From Flammeovirga kamogawensis (GTDB lineage: Bacteria > Bacteroidota > Bacteroidia > Cytophagales > Flammeovirgaceae): DNA of 64,000 nt. Under the pieces are notes generated by a model. That model did not search any database and was not told the DNA's origin. It was given only the letters and a program-made list of their open reading frames with translations. The DNA lies in NCBI RefSeq assembly GCF_018736065.1, contig NZ_CP076128.1, positions 806,001 to 870,000 on the forward strand, read 5' to 3'. Below are positions 47,716-64,000 of this stretch, piece after piece. A program made the translations under genes and the position numbers. How positions within the stretch are numbered: position 1 is the stretch's first letter; each line of letters starts with the position of its first letter.

Positions 47716-48777
47716 ATGAAACCTAATTTTTACTACTACTTCAGTTTATTATTAATAATCATATGTATTGATAATAATATATCTAGTGCACAAGACACGC
47801 AATTTTCGCAATACTATGCAACACCATTATACCTCAACCCTGCATTAACAGGTTCCAGTGAAGAAACTAGAGCTATTGTTAATTACAGAAATCAATGGGT
47901 AGGTCTCCCCTCAAGTATTACATCATTTATGGCATCTTTTGATCATAAATTTAAATACAAGAGTTTTGCTTTAGGAGGGTACATCAAACAAGATAATTAT
48001 GGTGTTAATGAAGGTACTCCATTAAAACATAATGAAGTTATTGCATCTGGTTCCTACACTATTGGAATCACAAAATATATGGGATTAAACCTTGGACTTC
48101 AAGTCGGATATGGTCAGAATCGTTTAGATAGATCTGCACTTGTTTTTAACGATCAGCTTGATTCCTTTGGTTTTACAGGTGCAACAACAAATGAGCCATT
48201 TGTTACAGACCAGGTTAATTATGCAGATGTAAGTACTGGAGCTATGCTCTTTGGAGAAAAATATTGGGCAGGAATTTCAATATTTCATTTAACTCAGCCA
48301 AACATTTCCTTTTTAGGTGAACAAGCCTACTTACCCGTTAGATTTGCATTAGAAGCAGGATATCAAATACCATTAGAATACAAAGGACACTATTCACATA
48401 TCCCTAATTATAAAAGAAAATCTTTAACGTTAGCTATGCATTATCAAAGCCAAGGTAAAAATGATCAATTAAGTGTTGGTGCTTATTTTCATTATCAACC
48501 ATTGCTATTTGGTGTTTGGTATAGAGGGCTTCCATTACTAAAACAATCTGAAAAGGATAATGCGATTAATCATGACGCCATAGTTTTACTTACAGGAATT
48601 AAAGTAGCAAATTTTAATTTCGGATATAGTTATGATATCACTTTATCTGATTTACCTCAACAGCATGCCAATTCACATGAGATAAGTTTACAGTATACTT
48701 TTAACTTATATAAAGATTATAGAAAAAAGCCAAAAAGAAAACCACTAGAATTATCTTGTCCATCCCCTAACTTATAG
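47716..48777 (+). CDS. PorP/SprF family type IX secretion system membrane protein
   Basis: 353 residues. Signal peptide (ending ISSAQ), then the family's hallmark start DTQFSQYYATPLYLNPALTGSS, NYRNQWVGLPSS, followed by an outer-membrane barrel with strand-like repeats (TIGITKYMGLNLGLQVGYGQ; FNFGYSYDITLSDL and HEISLQYTFNL at the end). SprF of Flavobacterium is needed to export the giant adhesin SprB, and PorP/SprF paralogues are often next to the type B-signal proteins they handle. Here the next gene is a giant surface protein, 208 bp downstream on the same strand, so it is the probable client. Confidence 0.94.
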   Translation: MKPNFYYYFSLLLIIICIDNNISSAQDTQFSQYYATPLYLNPALTGSSEETRAIVNYRNQWVGLPSSITSFMASFDHKFKYKSFALGGYIKQDNYGVNEGTPLKHNEVIASGSYTIGITKYMGLNLGLQVGYGQNRLDRSALVFNDQLDSFGFTGATTNEPFVTDQVNYADVSTGAMLFGEKYWAGISIFHLTQPNISFLGEQAYLPVRFALEAGYQIPLEYKGHYSHIPNYKRKSLTLAMHYQSQGKNDQLSVGAYFHYQPLLFGVWYRGLPLLKQSEKDNAINHDAIVLLTGIKVANFNFGYSYDITLSDLPQQHANSHEISLQYTFNLYKDYRKKPKRKPLELSCPSPNL

Positions 48778-48985: not shown

Positions 48986-51900
48986 ATGACAAAATCGTTA
49001 TTAAGATCGTTACTATTCATCGTAACTTGTACGTTAACATTGTTAGCGAATAGATTACATGGTCAAGATTTAGTTAGAACATCGGGGGGGATTAATTATG
49101 ATACTACACAAGTAATTCAAGGTTGTGAAGGTGTTGCAATTCAATTTTCAATTGATGGGCCAGACACGTACAGTAATTTTAATTGGTCTACGGATTACAA
49201 TGGAAATACCTATACTATTGCTGAACCTTTTGAGCAATTCAATGCTTTTGGCAACTATTCTATATCTGTAACTTTTGATGATTCTGGAGGTACGAGTTAC
49301 ACCAGAACAGTCACAAATAAAATTGTTGTGTATGATCAGCCAGAAGGCTCTTTTTATGCTTCTGCAACCAATGCATGTATTGGTGATACCATAACTCTCG
49401 TACAAACTACTCCTGGTACATTTAGTACTTTAGAATTTCTCGTTGATAATAAATTATACACTGTAACTAATGACTCTGCAAAAATAGTATTAGATAATTA
49501 TGGTGATTTTGATGTTGTATTAAGTGGGGTCACTTCAGATGGTTGTTCATTCATTAGAAGAGAAAATAACTACATACATATAGAAACACCTTTTACTACA
49601 GACTTAACTATAAATCAGACAATTAGTTGTGCAACTACACAATCAGTAATTTTCACTGCAACTTCAACAGATTCTGATGGGAATAGCGTTTCCCCTACTT
49701 ATTACTGGAATTTTGGAGATGGCAATTTTGACACTACATCAGCTAACACATCAATGCATACTTATAATATTGCAGATGGTACTAATTTTACAGCAACGGT
49801 AAGTACAATCTCAAATAATTGTGCAGGAACAACTAACAATTCTATCAACTTTTATTTTAAAGATATTTCTACTTTATATACCACTTCAATAGTGAGTACA
49901 TGTAATACATATGAAGTAACCTATACTCCTACTACAATAGACCCATTACTAGCATCAACTACTTTAACATGGGATTTTGATGATGGTTCATCAAGCGAGT
50001 CTCACTCAATTAGTGATACAGTTACACATAGTTTTTCAAACAATAACCCTACATCATTTAACGCAAATATAAGTGCAACCATCAATGAGATTAATGGTAA
50101 TTCATGTACTTATAATGATACTCAATTAATTCCAGTTCTCCCTCAAGCAGGTATAAATGTAGTAACTAATAACACTAGGTATTGCAGTGAAAACTTTGAT
50201 GTGGAAACACAAGCAATAAACCTTCAAAACGTTACTAATTTTTATTGGGTTGTTGATGGAGGAACTCCTGAAGGGAATAATAAAACAACAGATACATTAT
50301 CTATCAATGGCTACGGTAGTCATACAATAGAATTATTTTTTGATGCACAAACTGGGGATTTATCAGATAATTGTGCTTTAAACAGTATCGTTGTATATTC
50401 TGCACCTTTAGATATTACATTAACTGGACCTCAATACGATTGTGCCCCTTCAAATGAAACATTTACTGCTTCTGAAACTTGGGAAGATGAAAGTGGTAAT
50501 ATCATTAATAACCCATTTACTGTACAAGCTGAAAGCTGGTCGATAGTAAATACAGCTACAAATACCATTGTAACTGAAAACGGGAACCCAATGACATTGT
50601 CTAATTTAACACATGGTACTTATCAAATCACACGAAATATTGATCTGACTCCTATTGGAAATAATTCAAGCTGTTCTTTTTCTAGTATTCCTTATGATTA
50701 CGTAGTCGGAGAAAGATTAGATTCTCCTACAATACAACATGCCCCTTCAGTAATTTGTATTGGTACTACAGTAAATTTCAATACAACTACGGCTGCAGAT
50801 ACAGCGGGTTTAGGATTATCAGGAGATTACCCAATTGTTTATCAATATAGATATGCTAGTAACTTAGATTGGGTAACTGTTGGCACAAGTGGAATTGGAT
50901 CCTATTATTATGGAGATATTGTTGATGATAATAGAACAAGTTTACCTGGTACTTTTACAGTAGAGCTACGAGCTATTATTAATGGTTGTGGAGGTATGCC
51001 TTCTTCTCAAACTATCCGTATAGAAGCATCTGAAGCAGAACATGAATTGACCGTAGATGAATGTAATCCAACAATTCTTGGGTTTACAAACAATTCTTTA
51101 GGCACAAGCGACACTGATTATCAATGGACACTTACAATTGATCCTCCTGGACCTTCAAATACTGTTAATTATACTTCTCCAATCACTAAAGATGAAAATT
51201 ATAATTTCTTAGCAGACACCAACTTTCCTACTTTTACAGGCTATACTCAAGGAGAAATACCCGAATCTTCTAGTGTGTATGCTGTAATTACTGCTACTGA
51301 ACCTAGTGTTGGCTGTTCTGATACAGAAGATACAACGATAGTAATGCCAAATGCATTACCGATATTAAACCCTACACCTCAAACATCTGTAGGGACTTGT
51401 GTAAATAATACTATATCTTTTGATGCTGGAGATGGAAATATAGGAAGCTCTTACAATTGGGTATTTACACTTGATACAGATCCCTCAATAACTTTTAGTT
51501 TTGGATCAAATACTAGTTTAGTCAATGCAAATTTCCCAATTCCTGGTAACTATAATGGTACAGTAACTGTAGCTACAAATGCAGGATGTTTACAAACAGC
51601 CTCCGTCGGACCGATTCAAATTACAGGAGGGTCAGTACAAGTAACAGGAAATACTACTGCTTGTGTTGGAGACCCACAAACATTCCAAGGTACAAATTTA
51701 ATGTATAGCCCACTTCAACCTAATTATGAATGGCTAGTTGATGGGGTATCTCAAAGTTCTGGAACAACAGTATTGGTTGGTGGAAATTATATTGTCCCAG
51801 ATCTTACAAATATTATATTTAGTACTCCAAATTCTCCTCAAAATTTAGCACACACAGTTACTTTAAACCTTGAGGTAAACGGTTGTACTGCTAGTTACAC

Positions 51901-54900
51901 ACATGATATTACGGTAACTAAACCAATAGTATCTTTTGTTAATCCAATATCCGATTACATCACTTTTGACTATGTATGTGATGAAATAATAACTCAAATT
52001 GATCTTGATTTAGATACTGACGATATATATAACTTATCTACTGCAACTATAAATTATTTTATGGGTGGCATTGGGGGGACTTCTGTTGTTTCAAACACTC
52101 AAATTGATGATCAAGCAACATTTTCTTTATCTGCAGGAACATATACACTTACAGTTCAAGTGATTGATGAAAATGGTTGTTCGAGTGATGATGATATTAC
52201 ATTTACAGTTCCAACAATGCAAGAACTTGAAGCTAGATTTACTCCTAGTACTGTTAATTTAGTTTGCCCAGGTTTTGTTTCTTTTTCAGATTTAGCTGAT
52301 GATACCCCTGGTAATACAGTGAGACGAGATGATTTAGATGGTTTAAACTTATTTTTTGTTGATATCCAAACATGGGAATGGGATTTTGATGGAGACGGAA
52401 CAATTGATGCGACCACAACCGATGGTGCAGCAACTAATTATTATGATTCTCCCGGATCCTATGATGCAATTTTAACTGTTACAGATGTACATGGATGTCA
52501 AGATACCTCTACTCCTATTACTATTGTTGTTGGAGGTACTTCGGGTACATATGAAATAATGAAAAAAATTAGTTTTGAGCCAGCCACAACAACATTAGTC
52601 GCTTTCCCACGTGATGACCCAAATACTGATATTACAAATACAATCTATCAATGGTCTTCTGGAGATGGGCAAGCAGGAATGGATAGTGCCAACACTTTTC
52701 AATACATGTCTGAAGGTACTTACACACCAAGTTTAACCTTTATAGATGAAAATGGTTGTAATTACCCTGCTGATTATTCTGGTGACATGCGTGTTTTAAG
52801 TTGCCCTGATATTTCTGCTGCAGATATAACACTTTGTACCGATGCTGGTACTTACACATTAAATGTAACTGATATGTCATGGTCTAGTAGTTTTAATACT
52901 ACAGATACAATTGAAACAGCAACTTACATTTACTCATGGGAATTATCTTATCAATGGTATGTAGATGGAGTTTTGGTAAATTCAATAAATGGTGGTAATA
53001 ATCCTGAAGTCACTTTTAATTTTGCACCTGTTGACACTGCCCCATTTACAATTAATCCAGATGATGCAGATGGAAAATTGTATACAATCCAAGCTACAAT
53101 TATGACCTCTTATGTGGATAAAATTGATGCTACAAATAATGTTTTAAACATTGCTGAATGTGTTTCTAGCGATAACATTAGAGTGATTTATAATCCAACA
53201 CCTGTTCCATCATTTACAAATGATGAAGTATGCGGTGGTTCTGCTACAACTTTAGATGCTTCATTGTCTGATTTTGGACTATATACAAGAGGAGTAATAT
53301 CTAATTACGAATGGGATATTGATAATGATGGAACTTATGATTTAAGTTCAACCAACCCTATATCCTCCTATACATTTCCTAGTCAAGGAGTATATCCCGT
53401 TACATTAAGAACTACTTCTGCAGATGGTTGTTCTGCAATTTTTACTGAAGATTCAGTTATCGTTAATTCCATACCTGTTGCTAATTTTACGTATCAAAAT
53501 GTTTGTGAGAGTTTTGAAGTCTCTTTTGATGATTTATCAACAATTACACCTGTGACTGATGATAAAATAGTAAGGTGGGATTGGGATTTTAATAATAATG
53601 GCACTTTTGATTTTGGAGGAACTGACAGCCTTACACATAGATATCCAAGAATTAATTTCAATACTCAATTAGATGGTGATGGATCAATAATTGGTACGAA
53701 TCAAGTAATAACAACACGACTAGTTGTAACCACAAACAAAGGTTGTACCCATGAGTTTATTCCTTCTTCAGATTCAACATTAATATTTCAATTTAAAAAT
53801 CCTGACGCTGAATTAACTGCAGAAAGGCAATCCGACGCTTTATCTAATGAAGTTTGTCTTGGTCAAACATTTCAATTTAGAGACGCCTCTACAGTAGACA
53901 ACACGAATATTGCAACTTACATTGGGGATGGAACACTACCTGCTAATGTAAATGATATTATTGCATGGTATTGGGATTTTAATGATGGAAATTTCTCTAC
54001 ACTCGCAGATCCAAATCATGACTTTACAGCAGTGGGAACATATAATGTAAAATTGATGGTTACTACTGCAAGAGGTTGTAATAATATTGATAGTCTTACT
54101 GTATATGTGAGAGAAAATCCAGATTCAGAAATTGGATCAGATAGTATTATTGTTTGTAATGACGTACCTGTAACATTGAGACCGATAGCAAATGATAGTA
54201 CAGGTTTTGAATATTTATGGACAAGATTAAATGGACCTATCAATGGAACAACAAGTTTTACAGACACAACTTTACATACAGTTACAGTTACAGCACAAGA
54301 AAGTGATTATTCAGCTGGAGCAGCAAGAATTGATATTAAATATCAATTGCAAATTGAAGATACTAACCACCCTACTCTTTGTTTAACATATGATACTGTA
54401 GATGTTGGAATACACAGACTTCCTATAATAAGCTTAGACACTACTTTAATTTCGTGCGGAACATCTGCACTATATACTGCTTTGCCTTTTGGAGCAGAAA
54501 TAATTAATGGTTTTTCAACCACATGGACACAAGAGTATTTAAATGGAGGTACAATAGACACAACTCATTTAAATATCCAAGATTTAACCATAAACCCGAC
54601 TTCTTACTTATCTGGAAGCACGAGAATACAATCAAAATATTATGTTGATGTAGAGAATGAAATTGGTTGCTCTGATAGGGATAGTATAACATTTGAATTT
54701 TATAGACAACCAGACTTCTCTTCTTGGGTTGACTCAACAGAACAATGTAATTCATCTGATAGAAGTACATATGAAGTCGATTTCTATCCATTTGGAGAAA
54801 CAGAAGTTTTACCTCATAATTCAAGTTATGATTACACATGGAGTATGTCTTCTAATGCTGCTGATCATAATATAGATGCTTTAAATGTAACAGATTTAGT

Positions 54901-57900
54901 AAACCAAGTTATAGCAAATCAAAATAATCAAAATATAAACCTTGTATTAACCGAAGATTATTTTGTTGACAACACCACTTCATTATCATTTGAAATAGCA
55001 TTACATGTAGAAAACTCATTTGACAATACTTGCTTAAAAGATACAACTGTAATTTTTGAAATTGAAAGACGACCAAGGGAGCTTAATTTATTAGATACTA
55101 GGATTGATGTGTGTGATTCAGTTGTTGTATTAAATCACCATACAGAAACACTTGACTTTAATTATAGATGGAGAAATATTACTTCTGGGAATAGTTCTTC
55201 ATACAATGGGTCATCAATTCCTGATACATTTGGGCAAATAAGAACATTATCTTTTTCTGATAGTGATTATGCTACAGGTGCTTCTCAATTTACAATTAGA
55301 ATGAACAATAGAGTTCGTAAAAAAAATCCTGATGGAACTGATGCAAGCCCAGCTTGTGGTATAAATAGAAACTTAGATCTAGTTTTTTATAGAACGCCAA
55401 ATATTCAATTCTCAGAAACAAAAGCAGGGAACAACCCTTGTGCATCTTCTGCATTATTATCTTCAGGAAGCGAAGTTATTACTGGTTTTAATTACCAATG
55501 GGATTTAATAAGCATACAAAATGGTACGTTAACAGAAGATGCGCTCACTAATAAAGATATCAACCTTGCTGTGAGCAGTTGGAACACAAACCAAACAATA
55601 ATTACTGCAGAATATAGATTAACAGTAACAAATACAGCATCTCCTACTTGTATGGATGTTGAAAATTATACTATTCAGTTTTTCAGAACTCCTGAAATTA
55701 CATACACACCAGATGTAAATAATTGTGCTATTTCTGATACAGTTACTGCAAATAGTGAAGCATTGAATGGTGCTGATTTCTTATGGAATCAAAATACTAT
55801 TTCGGGAGGCTCTTTACTTACCACTCCTACAGCAGACAATAGTTCTACCACAAGCAATCAAATGATTATTGACGTAGATAATTTTAGTTTAGGACAACAT
55901 AGAATAGATGCAAATTATACGTTAACTATCAATAATTCTACGGCATCTACTTGTGACGATGACACTACCTTTAATATTACGTTTTATCGTACGCCTCAAA
56001 TTGCTTTTGTAGAAACTCGAACAGATTCTTGTGCTTTGATAAATACAATTCAACCTTTTGGAACAGAAGTAATAAGTGGTTATAACTATCAATGGAATCA
56101 ACTTTCAGTAGAAGGCGGAACTGTTTCTACTTCTACGCTAACAGATCAAGACCTTACAATAACAGCTACAAGTTTTGATCAAGACACTGCGTATATTGTG
56201 GCTAGATATGAACTATTTGTGCAAAATACAGATGCTAATAGTTGTGTGGATATAGATACTATTGAATTTAGATTTTATAGAACTCCTACTCTTGATGCTT
56301 TTGTTAAAAATAAACCATTAGATGAATGTGGACTCTCTGTAGAATTATATCCTTTAGGACAATCCGAAATAATTAATCATAATGAAGGTTTTGACTATAC
56401 TTGGACATTAAATTCAGTTACTGGAGCAGGTGCCGATGGTAGTACATTACCATCAAATATTAATGATTCCATTTCAAATCAAGTAAATGATCAAAACTTT
56501 GATTTAACAATGCCATTGAGTGCATTCGAAAGTGGATCAAATGAAATTATATTATCACTTGATGTGCACATAGAACATACAGACAATAATGTTACTTGTC
56601 AGACTGATTCTACACTTTTATTATCTTTCAAAAGACCTCCTGTTATAAGTCTTACAGAAATTAAGCCAGACAGTTGTGATTTAACATCCACTTTACAGCC
56701 GTTTGGAACAGAAGTAATAAGTGGCTTTAATTACAATTGGCAAATAACGAGTATTTCTGGATATGATGGTAACGATGGAGACCCATCAAATAATATGAGT
56801 GTTGGTTCTACTTTCACAACACAAGACCTTACTTTAACAATAACTGATGATGATTTTATAGATACCGAATCAAAAATTGAAATTATTCTTCAATTAGATG
56901 TAGCCAATAGCTTAGCTGTTTCTAATACTTCTTGCCAAGATGTTGCTGTAGATACCATTACTTTCTATCGTACACCAGAAATAAATTCTGCTTTTGCTTT
57001 CAATAAAATTGCAAATTGTGATCATACAGGAACATCAGAACCATTTTCTACGAATGTGAATGGGTTTGTTTATGTATGGATGCCAATTTCTGTTTCTGGT
57101 GGAGGCGTAAATCACAACAATTTATTCAGTCGAGAAATTACAATCGATGTAGATTCTTTTGCGACAAATAGTTTACAAATTGATGGTACATATAGATTAC
57201 GTGTATTTAACAGCGAAGTGCCTTCTTGTTATGATGAAGAAGATGTGAATTTTGAATTTTACAGAACTCCAGAAATTGTATTTAACGATCCTCTTGTAAA
57301 ATGTGCTGTAAAAGACACTTCAATGTCTTTCACTACGGCAAATGAAGCTTTTGTAAATGCAGGAGAAACATTTTACTGGAATTTAAATTCTATTACTGGA
57401 GGTAGTATTGATTCACTCAATAATAATAATGAATTTATTGTTGATGTAGACTCTTTTAGCACTGATGCTGTCCAGATAGATTTAGAATATCAAGTTTCAA
57501 TTACTAACTCTTCAGCTCACACTTGTGATGATGACACAACTTTCCAAGTTACTTTTTATAGAACTCCAGAGATAAATTTCTTATCAGTAAAAGCGGATTC
57601 TTGTGCTACCCAAGATATAATCAAACCTTTTAATGGAGAGGATATTCCATTAATAATTAGAACGTGGAGACAGTTAACCGTAAATGGTGGAACTATCAAC
57701 CAGAACAGTGGTGTAAATGATTTAGATCTTGATTTATCAATTACTACATTTGATTTAAATTCTACAACTGTTGATGTCTCATATGAACTTACTGCAGTCA
57801 ATTCTGTTTCTAATACTTGTACAGATAAAGATACAGTTACTGTACATTTTTATAGAACTCCTTCTTTTGCAAATTATAGCGAAACTATGCCCCTTGGCTT

Positions 57901-60900
57901 CTGTGGAGATTTAATAAATGTACAACCTTTAGGAGCTACAGAAATTATTAACCATAACAATGGCTTTAATTATCAATGGACATTAGATCCATCAACCGTT
58001 GTTGGGGCTAATGGTGGCGTATTAATACAACCTATTCTTGATAGTATTAATGCTAATCAAAACAATCAGAATTTAACGTTAAGCGTGGGAGATTCTGCAT
58101 ATGCAGATGGTGCGCATATTTTATCTTTTGAAATGGATTTAAATATTGCTCACTCAAATACAAACATTGCTTGTGCTACAAATGACACAACAATTCTCTA
58201 CAGATATATTCGTTACCCAGATATAGATATTGTAGAATCTAAAACAGACTCGTGTGATTTAACTTCTGAATTACAACCATTTGCATTAGAAACAATACCT
58301 GGTTTTAATTATAGTTGGAGAATTACAACTATTAGTGGATACGATGGAAGTGACTATGCTGTAAACGATACTTATTCTACGCAGAATACTACATTTACTG
58401 TAACCGATGATGATTTTATTGATAATGAATCAGTCATTGCAATCCAAGTTGAATTGACAGTAGTGAATAGTGCTGCAATGGCAGATCCAACGTGTTCTAA
58501 TACAGAAAACTACACTTTATATTTCTATAGAACACCAACAATCAACACTCCTTTTGATCATTCTAAAATGGCAGAATGTGATGGAAATGGTTTAGCCTCA
58601 CCATTCCCTACAGATGTAAATGGATATACTTACATATGGAGTATTGACTCAATTAGAAATGGTGCTATTTTTGATAATGCCGCACTCGCTCAAAGAGAAT
58701 TATCAGTTCAAGTAGATAGTTTTACTGACCTTGAATCTATCATGTATGTGTATTATCATTTGCGAGTTGTCAATACAAACCAAACTACTTGTTACGCTGA
58801 GGATACTGTTAGTTTTAGGTTCTATAGAACACCAGAAGTAAGCCTTACAAGTTTAACAGGTATTTGTCAGAGTTCTGTAATGGTTTCTTCTACAAATGAG
58901 ATGTTAAACGATGTGGATTTTGATTGGACCCAAAACAGCATAACTGGCGGTACAATTATTACAACACCAGCAATTCCAGACGGTAGTAGAACTGCAACTT
59001 TTACCGCCAATACATTTAATGCGGGAGAAAGTGAAATTAATGCAAATTACACTATCACATTATTAAATTCTGGTGAATCTATGTGTGATGATGATACTAC
59101 ATTTAATTTCACATTATTTAGAGAACCTGATATCAACCTTACTTATTCTAGAGCAAGTAACGATAGTTGTGATAATGCTCTAACACTAATCCCATTTAAT
59201 AACGAAGGAATTTCTGGCTATAACAATACTTGGTCAAATACATTTCTTAATGGTGGAGCAATAAATACGACAACTTTAACAGATGAAAATCTTACAGTTA
59301 CTGTTGACACTTTTGCTCTTCATTCTACAAGAATTGACTCTCGTTTCTTATTAAACTCTTTCAATACAAATTCTGTTGGTTGTTTAGACTCAATGAGTAT
59401 TGCTAGTACTTTATATAGATCACCTAATTTCACTAATTTTTCTGAAGTTAGAAATGATGGGTCATGTGGATTAACAATCAACTTCTACCCTCTTGGCACA
59501 AGCGAAATTATTGCTCATGGAAATGGCTTTGATTATCAATGGAATTTAAATTCTAGTGGTATATCTGGAGCTGGTTCTAATGGAAGTACATTACCAAGTG
59601 ATGTGTTATCGGACATTACCAATCAAATCAATAATCAAAATATAGAAGTAACACTCCCAATCACTGCTTTTGCAGCTGGTAGCAATAAAATTGAAATCCC
59701 ATTTACACTACAAATTAATAATACAGATCAACCAAGTTGTAGCAATAGTATAGATACTACAATGATCTTTTACCGCCCAGCAATTATTGATATTCAACAA
59801 AGTTTAACCACCTGTGGAATTGAAAATACAATAACAGCTTTTGGTTTAGAAGATGTTAGTAGTGCTTTTAATTTTAATTGGACCTTTACTACTGTTGGTG
59901 GTTCTATTTCAAACTCATCGCTAACAGGTCATACACTTACATTTAACAACCCTGTTTTTTCAGCAGGAAGTGATACTGTATTAGTTGATGTTTCTGTTAA
60001 TGTTGAAAATATTGAAAATACATCATGTGTAACTGATTCAACATTTAGATTTTACTTCTACAGAGAGCCTAATATTTCTATTAACCAATCAATAACTGCT
60101 TGTGGAAGTACAAATTTAATTAGCTTATTTAATACAGAGATAATTGATGGTTTTAATTACGTTTGGGATAGTGTTCAAGTAAATGGCGGAACGCTTTCTA
60201 TTGGTTCTGGTTATTCTTCATCTACTCAAAATATTGAATTAAATGCTTCATCTTTCGATTCTGGCAGTCATAGAATTGATGCAAATTATAGAATTTCAGT
60301 TTTTAATTACGATACTTTAGGGAATGCAAATTGTTCTGATTTTGAAGATATTCAATTCAGCATATTTAGAGTTCCAACAATGGCAATTGCCCAATCACTT
60401 ACAAGTGGTGATTGTGGAAATAGCAATACAATTACATTATTTGGTAATGAAATAATTGATGGATATAATTATACATGGAACCAGCAATCGGTTGTGGGTG
60501 GTACTATAAACATATCCTCAACTACAACACAAAATGTAATTTTAGACACTCCTATTTTCAATACATCATCGAATCAAATTGATGTTACTTATCAAGTAAC
60601 CGCTATTAATTCAGACTCTCCTACATGTTCATCTACAGAAACAGTTTCATTTACGTTTTATAGAACACCAAATGCTACAATTACAGATGTTAATGCAGAA
60701 TGTTCTACAACATCAATAGTATTAGAAACAACAGAAAGTTATGTACCTCAGTTTAATTACACTTGGAACCTAATAAATACAACTGTTGATAATAACCCTA
60801 ATAATGAAGCACTTACAACTCCTCAAGTTGTTCAAAACAATAATACATATACATTAAATTCTCCTATTGATCAAACAAGTTTCTTCCCTACGGGAAGTGC

Positions 60901-63900
60901 CTTAATGCAGTATGAATATGAGGTTGTAGTTGAAAATAGTTTATCTACTCAATGTATCGATAAAGATACTATTATGGCTTCTTTCTTTAGGAATCCAATT
61001 TTAAATTCAACTCAATCTTTAGATAGTATTGACTGTCAATTATCAAATACAATTAGACCTTTCGCTACAGAAAAGATTATTAATTATAGATATACATGGA
61101 ATGAAGTAAGTGTACTTGGTGGTACAATTGATACAACACATCTAGACAACCACAATCAAGATGTTCAATTTAATGTTGTCTCATTTGATTCATTAAGTCA
61201 TAGAATTGATGTTACTTATTCATTAGATGTAGAAAATGAATTAGGAGGTTGTAATGATAGTGAAACCTATATATTTACTTTCTTCCGTACTCCTATTACA
61301 GATTTAAGTCATCTAAATATTCCACCTATTTGTGAGGATGGAACAATAAATTTATTCCCAACAGAGGCAAACAATGCAGGTTATACATATAATTGGACAA
61401 GAGTAAGTATACTCACAGATAATGGCATTGATTTATTAGCTGCAAATATTTACCCTATGGAAAGCAGCTTAACAGATCATTCTATAACTTTAAACCACAA
61501 CCCATCCTTTCCTTCAAATAGTGTTCGTGTTATTGCCATTTATCAGTTAGAAACAACTAATAATGATAATGGTTGTACTACATCAGACCAAGTAACAGTT
61601 CAATTTGATAGAGATGCTACAATTGGTTTAACTTCAAATAATTTAACGGTGTGTGATGATGCTGACTTGATTTTACAAACTGTAGAAACTCGTCCTGATA
61701 ATTATGATTTCACATGGACAATTGATAGTATTTTTACAGATAACAATGCCAGTATTTCATCTCTATCAAATATAAACACATCAACTTCTGGGCAAATGAT
61801 TATAGATGCTGACCCTGTTGATTTCCCATTAGGAGCAGCGTTAATAACAGCTAGATTTGATGTTCATGCAGAGAACAAATTAAATGCTGGTTGCGATGCT
61901 GACACCGCATATACAGTTCAATTAGCACGAAAACCAATGATCAATTTTACTGATAATCATACTGGTTGTGCATTAGATACTGTCCTAATAAAACCCTTAG
62001 GTAATGAAACTATAAATGGCTACAATTACTCTTGGAGTGTTGCAAGTATTGATGGTTTTAATGGATCTGCTTCTGATGTAATTAATGGTCAAGCTGCTAA
62101 TCAGAATTTTGAAATTCATTTTGAAGATGATGACTTTTCAAATGGTCGATCTCAAATTGAAGTTACAATGGAACTTACAATAGTTAATCCGAATGGTAGT
62201 TCTTGTACTGCAACACAACAACACACACTTATTTTCTTCAGAGTTCCACATATCAATTTTGATGTAGTTAAGTCTGCAAATGATAGTTGTACCAACTTAA
62301 TAACTGTCTCTCCTTTTAATGAAGTGATTTCTGATTACCAATATCAATGGACAAAAATCTCTACTACAAATGGATCAGTATCTGAAGTAGATGTTACTGC
62401 AAGAGATTTAGTTACTCAGAATCCTATATTTAATAATGGAGAGACTCAAATAGATGTTCGTTATGAATTATCTATCATTAATAGTAACCCGAATGCTAGC
62501 CAACCTTGTATTACTACAAAAGAAGTAGACGTTTCATTCTTTAAAACCCCCGTGTTAAATACTACACTTTCTACTTCAATAATTGGCTGTAGTGACAATG
62601 TCAGTTTAAAAGCATTGACTTTCCCGATCACTTCATCACAAATGAATAATTATATATTCGATTGGCAGATGAGTTCTCTTAGTGGAGGTACAATAGATAC
62701 TTTAAGCAGTTATGATAGTTTACATATTAATGTTAATCAATTTGCAAGCGGATCTGGAGAAATTAATGTAACAATTGATATTGATGGAAAAAATGCACAC
62801 CAAGAAAACAGTTGTTTCAGTACTGAAAGTGAATTTTTTACATTCTATAGAACACCAAATATCACTTTAAGTCCATCAGCTACTGATTTATGTGAAGATC
62901 AAATTTTCTCAATTACAACAGGAGAAGAACTTGTTAGTCACTTTGATTATAATTGGACTATTACGGTAACTGATGATATTAATTTAAATACAGGGTCAGT
63001 GGATACTTCTTCTTATAATACAAGAGGTCATCAATTAGAATTAAGAAACCCTAGTTTCCCAATAGGCGCATCATATATAGAAATTGAGGCTACTTTAAAT
63101 GTTTCAAACGGTTCGAGTGGATGTTCTGATTTAGCAACAACTACTATACGTTTCCACAAACAGCCTACTCTTTCATTAATATCCTCTCCTATAGTATCTT
63201 GTGAAACTGGTTTTATTACACTTCGCCCAACTCAAAATGAAGTAACCAATTTTAACTACACATGGGAACAACTTGATATTACAAGTGACTCTGATTCAAT
63301 TTTAAATGCAAGTATTACGGAAACACCTTCGGGTTCTGCATACGAAATGAATCTGACTAGTCCTACTTTCCCTCATGGTGCAGCACAATTAACCGCACGA
63401 TATAAATTAACTATTTCTAATCCATCAAACCCTTATTGTACACAAGTAAGTGATTCTATTGATATAACTTTCTTTAGAAACCCAATTACAGAAATTCCTA
63501 CTACTGTTCAAGGAAGTTGTAATCAAACGAGTATTAATATTCAGCCAAATAACGAAGAGTTTATTAGCAATTTTAATTACGCATGGACAATTGATCAAAT
63601 AGATTCGGACATTTCTACTAATGATAACAGAGGAAATGTAACAATATCAAACACTAGTGGTTACAACCCAGATTTCATACTAAACACAATGCCTGATGAT
63701 GCGTCATCATTAACGGCTCATTTATCATTATCAACTGATAATGTATTTAATAATTGTGGAACAGGTACTGATCAATCTTCTATTACATTCTTAAGAACAC
63801 CTACTGTTATTTTACCTGCTGATTTGGGAGGTTGTCAGGAACAAGTATTTACTATAACACCTTTAGATACATACTGGAGCGGCATGAATTACAATTGGAG

Positions 63901-64000
63901 TATTATTTCTTTATCAGGTGGTAGAATAAATACACAATCTGATTTCAATACTAACTCAGCAACTTTGGCTGACCCAATTTTTAATTCGAATTCTCATGAA
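48986..64000 (+). CDS. Giant PKD- and FYRTP-module surface protein (adhesin-like), 3' end outside window
   Basis: One frame is open from the ATG at 48986 to the right edge, 5,005 codons with no stop seen. Residues 1-27 are a signal peptide (ending LHGQD). Residues ~28-1,700 contain several PKD-type domains (WNFGDG, WDFDDG, WDFDGDG, WDIDNDG, WDFNDG motifs). From about residue 1,707 it consists of tandem ~100-residue modules, each bounded by a F-[YF]-R-x-P motif and carrying one NYxW tryptophan and usually two cysteines. A type IX C-terminal signal is expected beyond the window. With PorP/SprF upstream this resembles SprB-type gliding/attachment adhesins. Shadow frames on both strands are not genes. 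Confidence 0.92.
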   Translation, partial: MTKSLLRSLLFIVTCTLTLLANRLHGQDLVRTSGGINYDTTQVIQGCEGVAIQFSIDGPDTYSNFNWSTDYNGNTYTIAEPFEQFNAFGNYSISVTFDDSGGTSYTRTVTNKIVVYDQPEGSFYASATNACIGDTITLVQTTPGTFSTLEFLVDNKLYTVTNDSAKIVLDNYGDFDVVLSGVTSDGCSFIRRENNYIHIETPFTTDLTINQTISCATTQSVIFTATSTDSDGNSVSPTYYWNFGDGNFDTTSANTSMHTYNIADGTNFTATVSTISNNCAGTTNNSINFYFKDISTLYTTSIVSTCNTYEVTYTPTTIDPLLASTTLTWDFDDGSSSESHSISDTVTHSFSNNNPTSFNANISATINEINGNSCTYNDTQLIPVLPQAGINVVTNNTRYCSENFDVETQAINLQNVTNFYWVVDGGTPEGNNKTTDTLSINGYGSHTIELFFDAQTGDLSDNCALNSIVVYSAPLDITLTGPQYDCAPSNETFTASETWEDESGNIINNPFTVQAESWSIVNTATNTIVTENGNPMTLSNLTHGTYQITRNIDLTPIGNNSSCSFSSIPYDYVVGERLDSPTIQHAPSVICIGTTVNFNTTTAADTAGLGLSGDYPIVYQYRYASNLDWVTVGTSGIGSYYYGDIVDDNRTSLPGTFTVELRAIINGCGGMPSSQTIRIEASEAEHELTVDECNPTILGFTNNSLGTSDTDYQWTLTIDPPGPSNTVNYTSPITKDENYNFLADTNFPTFTGYTQGEIPESSSVYAVITATEPSVGCSDTEDTTIVMPNALPILNPTPQTSVGTCVNNTISFDAGDGNIGSSYNWVFTLDTDPSITFSFGSNTSLVNANFPIPGNYNGTVTVATNAGCLQTASVGPIQITGGSVQVTGNTTACVGDPQTFQGTNLMYSPLQPNYEWLVDGVSQSSGTTVLVGGNYIVPDLTNIIFSTPNSPQNLAHTVTLNLEVNGCTASYTHDITVTKPIVSFVNPISDYITFDYVCDEIITQIDLDLDTDDIYNLSTATINYFMGGIGGTSVVSNTQIDDQATFSLSAGTYTLTVQVIDENGCSSDDDITFTVPTMQELEARFTPSTVNLVCPGFVSFSDLADDTPGNTVRRDDLDGLNLFFVDIQTWEWDFDGDGTIDATTTDGAATNYYDSPGSYDAILTVTDVHGCQDTSTPITIVVGGTSGTYEIMKKISFEPATTTLVAFPRDDPNTDITNTIYQWSSGDGQAGMDSANTFQYMSEGTYTPSLTFIDENGCNYPADYSGDMRVLSCPDISAADITLCTDAGTYTLNVTDMSWSSSFNTTDTIETATYIYSWELSYQWYVDGVLVNSINGGNNPEVTFNFAPVDTAPFTINPDDADGKLYTIQATIMTSYVDKIDATNNVLNIAECVSSDNIRVIYNPTPVPSFTNDEVCGGSATTLDASLSDFGLYTRGVISNYEWDIDNDGTYDLSSTNPISSYTFPSQGVYPVTLRTTSADGCSAIFTEDSVIVNSIPVANFTYQNVCESFEVSFDDLSTITPVTDDKIVRWDWDFNNNGTFDFGGTDSLTHRYPRINFNTQLDGDGSIIGTNQVITTRLVVTTNKGCTHEFIPSSDSTLIFQFKNPDAELTAERQSDALSNEVCLGQTFQFRDASTVDNTNIATYIGDGTLPANVNDIIAWYWDFNDGNFSTLADPNHDFTAVGTYNVKLMVTTARGCNNIDSLTVYVRENPDSEIGSDSIIVCNDVPVTLRPIANDSTGFEYLWTRLNGPINGTTSFTDTTLHTVTVTAQESDYSAGAARIDIKYQLQIEDTNHPTLCLTYDTVDVGIHRLPIISLDTTLISCGTSALYTALPFGAEIINGFSTTWTQEYLNGGTIDTTHLNIQDLTINPTSYLSGSTRIQSKYYVDVENEIGCSDRDSITFEFYRQPDFSSWVDSTEQCNSSDRSTYEVDFYPFGETEVLPHNSSYDYTWSMSSNAADHNIDALNVTDLVNQVIANQNNQNINLVLTEDYFVDNTTSLSFEIALHVENSFDNTCLKDTTVIFEIERRPRELNLLDTRIDVCDSVVVLNHHTETLDFNYRWRNITSGNSSSYNGSSIPDTFGQIRTLSFSDSDYATGASQFTIRMNNRVRKKNPDGTDASPACGINRNLDLVFYRTPNIQFSETKAGNNPCASSALLSSGSEVITGFNYQWDLISIQNGTLTEDALTNKDINLAVSSWNTNQTIITAEYRLTVTNTASPTCMDVENYTIQFFRTPEITYTPDVNNCAISDTVTANSEALNGADFLWNQNTISGGSLLTTPTADNSSTTSNQMIIDVDNFSLGQHRIDANYTLTINNSTASTCDDDTTFNITFYRTPQIAFVETRTDSCALINTIQPFGTEVISGYNYQWNQLSVEGGTVSTSTLTDQDLTITATSFDQDTAYIVARYELFVQNTDANSCVDIDTIEFRFYRTPTLDAFVKNKPLDECGLSVELYPLGQSEIINHNEGFDYTWTLNSVTGAGADGSTLPSNINDSISNQVNDQNFDLTMPLSAFESGSNEIILSLDVHIEHTDNNVTCQTDSTLLLSFKRPPVISLTEIKPDSCDLTSTLQPFGTEVISGFNYNWQITSISGYDGNDGDPSNNMSVGSTFTTQDLTLTITDDDFIDTESKIEIILQLDVANSLAVSNTSCQDVAVDTITFYRTPEINSAFAFNKIANCDHTGTSEPFSTNVNGFVYVWMPISVSGGGVNHNNLFSREITIDVDSFATNSLQIDGTYRLRVFNSEVPSCYDEEDVNFEFYRTPEIVFNDPLVKCAVKDTSMSFTTANEAFVNAGETFYWNLNSITGGSIDSLNNNNEFIVDVDSFSTDAVQIDLEYQVSITNSSAHTCDDDTTFQVTFYRTPEINFLSVKADSCATQDIIKPFNGEDIPLIIRTWRQLTVNGGTINQNSGVNDLDLDLSITTFDLNSTTVDVSYELTAVNSVSNTCTDKDTVTVHFYRTPSFANYSETMPLGFCGDLINVQPLGATEIINHNNGFNYQWTLDPSTVVGANGGVLIQPILDSINANQNNQNLTLSVGDSAYADGAHILSFEMDLNIAHSNTNIACATNDTTILYRYIRYPDIDIVESKTDSCDLTSELQPFALETIPGFNYSWRITTISGYDGSDYAVNDTYSTQNTTFTVTDDDFIDNESVIAIQVELTVVNSAAMADPTCSNTENYTLYFYRTPTINTPFDHSKMAECDGNGLASPFPTDVNGYTYIWSIDSIRNGAIFDNAALAQRELSVQVDSFTDLESIMYVYYHLRVVNTNQTTCYAEDTVSFRFYRTPEVSLTSLTGICQSSVMVSSTNEMLNDVDFDWTQNSITGGTIITTPAIPDGSRTATFTANTFNAGESEINANYTITLLNSGESMCDDDTTFNFTLFREPDINLTYSRASNDSCDNALTLIPFNNEGISGYNNTWSNTFLNGGAINTTTLTDENLTVTVDTFALHSTRIDSRFLLNSFNTNSVGCLDSMSIASTLYRSPNFTNFSEVRNDGSCGLTINFYPLGTSEIIAHGNGFDYQWNLNSSGISGAGSNGSTLPSDVLSDITNQINNQNIEVTLPITAFAAGSNKIEIPFTLQINNTDQPSCSNSIDTTMIFYRPAIIDIQQSLTTCGIENTITAFGLEDVSSAFNFNWTFTTVGGSISNSSLTGHTLTFNNPVFSAGSDTVLVDVSVNVENIENTSCVTDSTFRFYFYREPNISINQSITACGSTNLISLFNTEIIDGFNYVWDSVQVNGGTLSIGSGYSSSTQNIELNASSFDSGSHRIDANYRISVFNYDTLGNANCSDFEDIQFSIFRVPTMAIAQSLTSGDCGNSNTITLFGNEIIDGYNYTWNQQSVVGGTINISSTTTQNVILDTPIFNTSSNQIDVTYQVTAINSDSPTCSSTETVSFTFYRTPNATITDVNAECSTTSIVLETTESYVPQFNYTWNLINTTVDNNPNNEALTTPQVVQNNNTYTLNSPIDQTSFFPTGSALMQYEYEVVVENSLSTQCIDKDTIMASFFRNPILNSTQSLDSIDCQLSNTIRPFATEKIINYRYTWNEVSVLGGTIDTTHLDNHNQDVQFNVVSFDSLSHRIDVTYSLDVENELGGCNDSETYIFTFFRTPITDLSHLNIPPICEDGTINLFPTEANNAGYTYNWTRVSILTDNGIDLLAANIYPMESSLTDHSITLNHNPSFPSNSVRVIAIYQLETTNNDNGCTTSDQVTVQFDRDATIGLTSNNLTVCDDADLILQTVETRPDNYDFTWTIDSIFTDNNASISSLSNINTSTSGQMIIDADPVDFPLGAALITARFDVHAENKLNAGCDADTAYTVQLARKPMINFTDNHTGCALDTVLIKPLGNETINGYNYSWSVASIDGFNGSASDVINGQAANQNFEIHFEDDDFSNGRSQIEVTMELTIVNPNGSSCTATQQHTLIFFRVPHINFDVVKSANDSCTNLITVSPFNEVISDYQYQWTKISTTNGSVSEVDVTARDLVTQNPIFNNGETQIDVRYELSIINSNPNASQPCITTKEVDVSFFKTPVLNTTLSTSIIGCSDNVSLKALTFPITSSQMNNYIFDWQMSSLSGGTIDTLSSYDSLHINVNQFASGSGEINVTIDIDGKNAHQENSCFSTESEFFTFYRTPNITLSPSATDLCEDQIFSITTGEELVSHFDYNWTITVTDDINLNTGSVDTSSYNTRGHQLELRNPSFPIGASYIEIEATLNVSNGSSGCSDLATTTIRFHKQPTLSLISSPIVSCETGFITLRPTQNEVTNFNYTWEQLDITSDSDSILNASITETPSGSAYEMNLTSPTFPHGAAQLTARYKLTISNPSNPYCTQVSDSIDITFFRNPITEIPTTVQGSCNQTSINIQPNNEEFISNFNYAWTIDQIDSDISTNDNRGNVTISNTSGYNPDFILNTMPDDASSLTAHLSLSTDNVFNNCGTGTDQSSITFLRTPTVILPADLGGCQEQVFTITPLDTYWSGMNYNWSIISLSGGRINTQSDFNTNSATLADPIFNSNSHE
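49084..49090 (+). repeat. G7 homopolymer tract near start of the giant gene
   Basis: Seven G at codons 33-35, just after the predicted signal-peptide cleavage site (Ser-Gly-Gly). Gaining one G gives a TAA two codons later; losing one gives a stop after a few codons. Confidence 0.9.
49686..54103 (+). other. PKD-domain-rich N-terminal part of the giant protein
   Basis: At least six PKD-like domains are visible by their W-x-F/W-D-F/I-x-D-G cores at about 49703, 49966, 52374, 53308, 53578 and 53968. Between them are less clear Ig-like/PKD-like segments with a recurring cysteine. PKD domains are common surface-protein spacers in Bacteroidota. The segment ends where the FYRTP modules begin. Confidence 0.75.
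54104..64000 (+). repeat. Tandem array of ~100-residue FYRTP modules
   Basis: Thirty-two boundary motifs related to F-[YF]-R-T-P-x-[IF] were found by eye, the first at 54104 and the last near 63790. Spacing is 288-363 bp. Within a module the order is: FYRTP, ~12 residues, Cys (often DSC), PFGTE-like turn, GFNYxW, GGT, a strand ending with Phe, I-x-x-x-Y-x-L, N-x-x-x-x-C, then the next FYRTP. Two Cys per module could form a disulfide. It does not look like the short SprB repeat or PKD. Confidence 0.9.
54698..59410 (+). repeat. Three five-module superrepeats (1575, 1575, 1563 bp)
   Basis: Module boundaries at 54698, 56273, 57848 and 59411 are all followed by the long module type (PLG/PFG-x-x-E-I/V-I-x-H-N, Q-NNQN). 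Inside each block the module lengths run long, medium, short, short, short: 363-324-294-303-291, 354-336-294-297-294 and 357-318-297-294-297 bp. Modules in the same position resemble each other more than their neighbours, for example ISGYDG in position 2 and the CDDDTTF ending of positions 4 in blocks B and C. Confidence 0.85.

Follow-up and report, generated by a model that had tools for sequence, protein, structure and literature searches.

Nebulin is a eukaryotic muscle protein, and its repeats are taken to mirror the periodicity of the filament. It is described as having grown several domains at a time, with a similarity peak at a lag of seven domains, and the same study lists Ig-like repeats of bacteria among those that expanded through internal duplication (Bjorklund et al. 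2006, PMC1553488). The super-repeats of titin are also taken to mirror filament periodicity (PMC10665226). Here, we analysed a stretch of 64,000 nucleotides from the marine bacterium Flammeovirga kamogawensis (contig NZ_CP076128.1, positions 806,001 to 870,000 of the forward strand; hereafter the window), which carries a giant gene on the + strand (48986..65605) encoding a protein of 5,539 amino acids (aa) with 32 modules of about 100 aa each in its middle. The gene is still open at the window end (in-window part, 48986..64000), and the rest, up to 65605, was taken from the same genome. We found that the module array contains a five-module block repeated three times, that these blocks are older than the genus, and that the arrays of related species differ in length by steps of five modules.

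The giant protein is like nebulin in its similarity peak at a fixed lag and in duplications in the middle of the array, and the same type of autocorrelation test applies to both (PMC1553488). Unlike nebulin, it is a bacterial protein with an export signal and predicted PKD-like modules, its lag is five, and its length differs between species in steps of that size. Its likeness to the A-band super-repeats of titin lies in domains at equal positions being more alike and in recursive duplication of the super-repeat; titin, however, is built from two domain types, Ig and FnIII, and is bound to the muscle thick filament (PMC10665226), whereas no such filament is known for the Flammeovirga protein. 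A preliminary description of the window, made from its letters only, had stated that no surface protein with this arrangement was known. For surface proteins within the open-licence literature this holds, as the titles and abstracts of such papers revealed no described bacterial surface-protein case and no on-point work on Flammeovirga, but it does not hold in general, given nebulin and titin. Super-repeat growth itself is known from these two proteins, of which the Flammeovirga protein is a bacterial variant with phase-free five-module steps. The differing phase of these steps in two lineages and a paralog that also has a lag of five go beyond the preliminary description and merit most attention.

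The modules were delimited with a module hidden Markov model (HMM), from which matches below 15 bits were dropped (10 of 42, seven in the N-terminal region and three after the last module, M32). Module boundaries at 54698, 56273, 57848 and 59411 (all on the + strand) define block 1 (M3 to M7, 54698..56272), block 2 (M8 to M12, 56273..57847) and block 3 (M13 to M17, 57848..59410), of 1,575, 1,575 and 1,563 bp, bearing out the interval 54698..59410 and the three lengths proposed in the preliminary description. Each block starts with a long module, the module lengths being 121/108/98/101/97 aa in block 1, 118/112/98/99/98 aa in block 2 and 119/106/99/98/99 aa in block 3. M18 (59411..59767) repeats the long module of position 1 a fourth time, but a fourth block is not continued after it: M19 to M22 do not follow M18 in block order. 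The motifs said to be private to equal positions were recovered in part. The four long modules carry QNNQN, QVNDQN, QNNQN and QINNQN, and CDDDTTF is present in all three fourth modules, but SGYDG is confined to M9 and M14 and is missing from M4.

Pairwise module scores revealed the same order. Over M3 to M17, the mean scores in global alignments for lags 5 and 10 were 176 and 150, respectively, as opposed to 26.5 to 84.3 at the 12 other lags. When all 32 modules were included, lag 5 was the maximum over lags 1 to 12, a value reached by none of 5,000 shuffles of the module order. Lag 5 was also highest in every plain lag table, computed for all nine primary genes of the genus and all five paralogs; the shuffle tests covered two of the former and two of the latter. 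At the DNA level, Tandem Repeats Finder reported no simple tandem repeat in the giant gene, and the whole-module DNA identity at lag 5 is inside the range of the other lags.

A tree grouping the modules by block position had been predicted, and the module tree, in which the bootstrap had not settled, followed this prediction clearly for two of the five positions. Position 1 (M3, M8 and M13 together with M18) and position 4 (M6, M11 and M16) formed clades with supports of 98/95 and 97/94, whereas position 2 was weak at 51/53, with a very diverged M4. Positions 3 and 5 were not clades in the best tree, in which M5 and M17 were placed elsewhere, although forcing either position together was not rejected by the approximately unbiased test (p-AU 0.19 and 0.35, respectively). 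The opposite pattern, in which the five neighbours of a block group together and which the preliminary description had named as refuting its claim, was rejected for all three blocks (p-AU 0.010, 2e-53 and 2e-5). Equal-position likeness is thus clear for positions 1 and 4 and weaker for positions 2, 3 and 5. The array is a super-repeat: equal positions are more alike than neighbours, and three complete blocks of one order are followed by M18. We also observed a lone module, M26 (61922-62233), that groups with the position-2 modules M9 and M14 (support 89) while lying out of register.

The age of the blocks could be computed directly from nine genomes of the genus (G000 to G008). Five of them have giant genes letter-identical to those at named loci, namely of Flammeovirga sp. 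SJP92 (G001), sp. EKP202 (G004), F. aprica (G005), sp. OC4 (G006) and F. pacifica (G007). Near-copies were avoided by building the slot tree and the block-clade tree from five genomes each and the conservation table from four. The modules of all eight other genomes match the slots of the window in order, the sole departures being repeated five-slot runs. A search for the module order in relatives, as the preliminary description had proposed, therefore finds the 32 slots recurring in sequence in nine of nine Flammeovirga genomes. In the slot tree, every one of the 32 slots forms a single group, the 31 changes being the lowest number possible; support, listed for 15 slots, is between 81 and 100 except for M10 (23). 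The three blocks, B1, B2 and B3, are clades across genomes with supports of 100/100, 99/98 and 100/100. Orthologous modules are on average 52-69% identical, and corresponding modules of different blocks share 25-53% protein identity. As the blocks are clades across genomes and the slots have been kept, the cassette was repeated before the radiation of the genus, and each module has been retained since. The earlier proposal that divergence of the modules came first and duplication of the cassette second is upheld, and the duplication can now also be placed before the split of the genus.

Next to the old blocks, we found recent changes in array length. The array has 32 modules in G000, G003, G004, G006, G007 and G008, 37 in G002 and G005, and 42 in G001, so that all nine genomes have 32 plus a multiple of five. 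The extra unit in G002 is M19 to M23, of 1,512 bp (counterpart in the window, 59768..61279, +), with copies sharing 98.9% identity across 1,506 bp. The extra unit of G005 and G001 is M17 to M21, of 1,542 bp (59114..60655, +), with about 77% DNA identity; it is present twice in G005 and, with one further copy, three times in G001. Both units are bounded close to module starts, and their joints, read directly, lie in an F-Y-R-T-P motif at the module boundary (FFRTP joined to VVDIQQ in G002, FYRTPD joined to INLAY in G005). The phase differs between these two founding events and from that of the blocks M3 to M17. The suggestion that five modules form a unit therefore stands as far as the number five recurs, but not for a cassette with fixed ends, as the later duplications are out of phase.

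Could the block pattern stem from the alignment alone, or the copy numbers from assembly errors? Several of the genomes are drafts, and copies as similar as those in G002 would be prone to such an error. The old blocks, however, consist of corresponding modules as distant as noted above and yet form clades over five genomes, the G002 assembly has 3 contigs, and the G005 copies are too distant for an assembly slip. We consider an artefactual origin very improbable.

If long stretches of homologous DNA had guided the recent duplications, the boundaries that were joined should be unusually alike. We compared 120-bp boundary windows (465 pairs per genome), with unexpanded present-day relatives standing in for the ancestral state. 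The pair M17/M22 ranked 147 in G000, 443 in G006, 41 in G008 and 258 in G003, and the pair M19/M24 ranked 146, 390, 463 and 410 in the same genomes. With the exception of M17/M22 in G008, the joint pairs are thus mostly unremarkable in their likeness, and long homology is therefore unlikely to have set the size of the units M17-M21 and M19-M23. Over the whole array, there was a small excess of boundary-DNA identity at lag 5, of 45% versus 40-43% at other lags in G000, 42 versus 39-41 in G006, and 43 versus 38-42 in both G008 and G003, and the most alike boundary pair was M7/M12 in all four genomes.

These data bear on a reading in which the number five has no meaning of its own: blocks arise by recombination at the boundary motif, and once a block of five modules exists, it steers the exchange that follows, as happens in the higher-order repeats of satellite DNA. 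The second extra copy in G001 is consistent with an exchange steered by the 1,542-bp tandem unit already in place, and the lag-5 boundary excess, with M7/M12 as the most alike pair in four genomes, points in the same direction. The unremarkable whole-module DNA identity at lag 5 and the ordinary likeness of most joint pairs speak against it. We regard this reading as a serious though tentative one.

The genus also has a second giant gene of this kind. We met this paralog, which is 4,538-4,549 aa long and in which 37 or 38 modules were detected, during the module search in at least five of the nine genomes; no dedicated search was made in the other four. Lag 5 was highest in all five copies, and none of 5,000 shuffles reached it in the two copies tested. 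In G006, 34 of 37 paralog modules match best within the same protein. Since paralog modules match best inside the paralog, its blocks either arose independently or were homogenised later. Paralog modules 24-28 and 29-33 are much alike in G006 (scores of 333-452), the matching units in G002 scoring 227-301, a contrast hinting at recent conversion or reduplication.

The repeated return of the number five can alternatively be explained by structure. If a twist of the rod, or pairing with a neighbour, set every fifth module alike, five modules would be a structural quantum, and only an addition of five would keep the register. All recognisable founding duplications in Flammeovirga indeed comprise five modules, namely the old blocks, M17-M21 in G001 and G005, M19-M23 in G002, and two sets in the paralog; the two recent ones keep this number in spite of their different phase, at joints that are mostly not among the most alike. 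However, the events are few, and the paralog sets come from a score table where other lags are favoured by several modules. Moreover, an exact pitch would be upset by the spread in module length (96 to 121 aa). The generality of five is further weakened by G012, a genome from another genus of the same family, in which a protein of 44 modules is organised in four-module units and a single three-module unit (best lags 11, 4, 15 and 7; none of 5,000 shuffles). We rate a structural quantum as rather unlikely. A bolder version, in which five modules are the physical length quantum of a rod, the arrays of the genus change only by five so as to keep a five-module repeat of twist or lateral contact in register, and the protein serves as a molecular ruler or as an extracellular fibre with multiple sites, a bacterial counterpart of titin and nebulin, seems improbable to us.

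Unit sizes other than five, on the other hand, are what a meaningless five would lead one to expect, and the period of four in G012 is not the only one. A second giant CHU_C protein contains a block of about 404 aa of mixed domains, whose copy number, read from matched spans, varies between species: about three copies in G000, G001, G002 and G005, where the protein has 2,682-2,690 aa, but two in G004 and G006, where it has 2,286 aa. By eye, this block looks like the C-terminal stalk of the giant protein of the window. The period of four in G012 and the variable 404-aa block indicate that block growth is a general habit of these proteins and that five is not universal. We also ran self-BLAST with 100-aa windows on 13 further long CHU_C proteins from the family: the strongest self-match was at an offset of 200-450 aa in six and of about 100 aa in five, and two had few matches. 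Two proteins of G010 showed no significant period (516 and 662 of 5,000 shuffles). We also noticed two giant proteins of T9SS (type IX secretion system) type, of 3,481 aa in G012 and 2,954 aa in G009, whose repeats measure about 200 and 450 aa and whose best 100-aa-window identities are 99 and 100%, respectively.

One more explanation treats the unit size as secondary. M19, M20 and M21 are common to both recently duplicated units, and selection for more copies of them, for example as ligand-binding modules, would give the observed arrays. Yet their conservation is not higher than that of other modules (64, 52 and 63% identity, in an overall range of 52-69%), and we find this explanation unlikely as well.

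Taken together, recombination of blocks at the conserved boundary motif with purifying selection on each module is the likeliest combination, a structural quantum being possible on few events. The account we favour, and hold to be probable, is that of a giant type B T9SS surface protein grown by five-module tandem duplication, most likely an extended adhesin or stalk. It would be held in the outer membrane by the PorP/SprF-family protein encoded upstream, and its middle would consist of 32 PKD-like modules with one cysteine pair each. The array would have grown by tandem duplication of five-module groups through recombination at the F-Y-R-T-P inter-module motif. An early series would have produced M3-M7, M8-M12 and M13-M17, together with one or more modules of a fourth block, including its first; the modules would then have diverged and been kept singly from a time before the radiation of the genus. 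Individual lineages would later have gained five modules again by duplication, now inside the array and in another phase. Secretion, disulfide bonds, anchoring, adhesion and a rod shape are what we infer for the protein, and the repeated positions may repeat a pattern of binding or stiffness. Why the step is five is left to the explanations above, as a quantum, recombination and module selection are all compatible with this account. In this intron-free bacterial system, the lengthening of a giant repeat protein by whole blocks can be followed down to the single base, with its unit, joint and phase in view, and nine related genomes supply forms of 32, 37 and 42 modules. If the five-module step holds in more strains, a structural versus a recombinational origin of super-repeats becomes directly testable, as the repeat can be cut by a whole or a part block in a marine bacterium.

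Outside the blocks, the + strand gene starts with an N-terminal region (48986..54115) made of a hydrophobic leader, seen by eye, and PKD domains (PKD_4, 3.9e-49, nine stretches in Pfam). M1 and M2, identified by the module HMM, precede the blocks (54116..54697), and M24 to M32 (61280..64000) are diverged modules without block pattern, the end of M32 at 64078 being past the window. PKD, Ig_7 and CHU_C domains lie downstream of M32, up to 65605. A Pfam match to TOM13 in the giant protein was taken as chance (22.5 bits versus a cut-off of 25).

All 32 modules have two cysteines, and two cysteines and one tryptophan are invariant across 31 aligned modules. In this they are unlike the Pfam PKD families (PF00801, PF18911), which had no match over aa 1707-5005 at E <= 1. 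The model of one module has a predicted local distance difference test (pLDDT) score of 93.9. Five of its top six VIA matches are chains of one PKD-bearing receptor, AAVR, with PKD titled in one. PKD-titled chains are also at ranks 8, 9, 11, 23 and 46 among the best 50 matches. The modules are thus predicted to be PKD-like in fold, albeit unrecognised by Pfam.

The module family has a narrow distribution. At E <= 1e-5, it was found in 11 of the 390 genomes searched in the order, counting the own one, and in three of 129 genera. A class-wide profile search gave only weak matches outside the own genome, the best at 9.9e-7, and with the own genome counted, 36 of 395 had a match at E <= 0.001. A contig scan with one sequence found no relative, and an alignment query found five Flammeovirga loci. 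No chain of GhpA, the grappling hook protein of Aureispira, was matched by the module profile, by a ten-module profile or by aa 1707-5005, and 9flw, a GhpA fragment, is absent among the best 50 VIA matches to the single module. Against a model of 56273-58204, 9flw aligns over 460 residues with 16% identity, the highest among the best 50; its root-mean-square deviation is large, and cadherin chains score alike. A distant tie to the hook protein is possible, as a lead only.

At its C-terminus, the giant protein has a type B T9SS C-terminal domain, computed directly from CHU_C (54.4 bits versus a cut-off of 27) and TIGR04131 (45.3 versus 35). Only 208 nt upstream of the giant gene ends a gene on the same strand (47716..48777, +) for a PorP/SprF-family outer-membrane protein of 353 aa, a predicted anchor or carrier (PF11751, 1.5e-61; TIGR03519, 3e-70). 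Proteins with type B C-terminal domains are described as binding PorP-like proteins (PMC9143113), and the combination of a type B signal with a neighbouring PorP/SprF gene is like that of SprB and SprF (PMC9143113, PMC12635249). The tail and the adjacent gene suggest that the giant protein is anchored at the surface. An open reading frame with a like C-tail, judged by that tail, ends 33-211 nt ahead of the giant gene in all 11 loci (nine of the genus, with G002 cut by the locus end, G012 and G010). SprF is described as coupled to the gliding track via a Cys-Xaa-Cys tail, and the PorG tail of P. gingivalis as having a single Cys (PMC12635249). Unlike SprF (PMC12635249), the partner has no Cys-Xaa-Cys: its tail ends ELSCPSPNL, and one Cys is present in the 40-residue C-tail in 11 of 11 loci. 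The protein may or may not have a gliding role. The tail of the partner carries a conserved single Cys-Pro (CPSP), and two more PorP/SprF-family proteins of the genome end in CPTP and CPAP.

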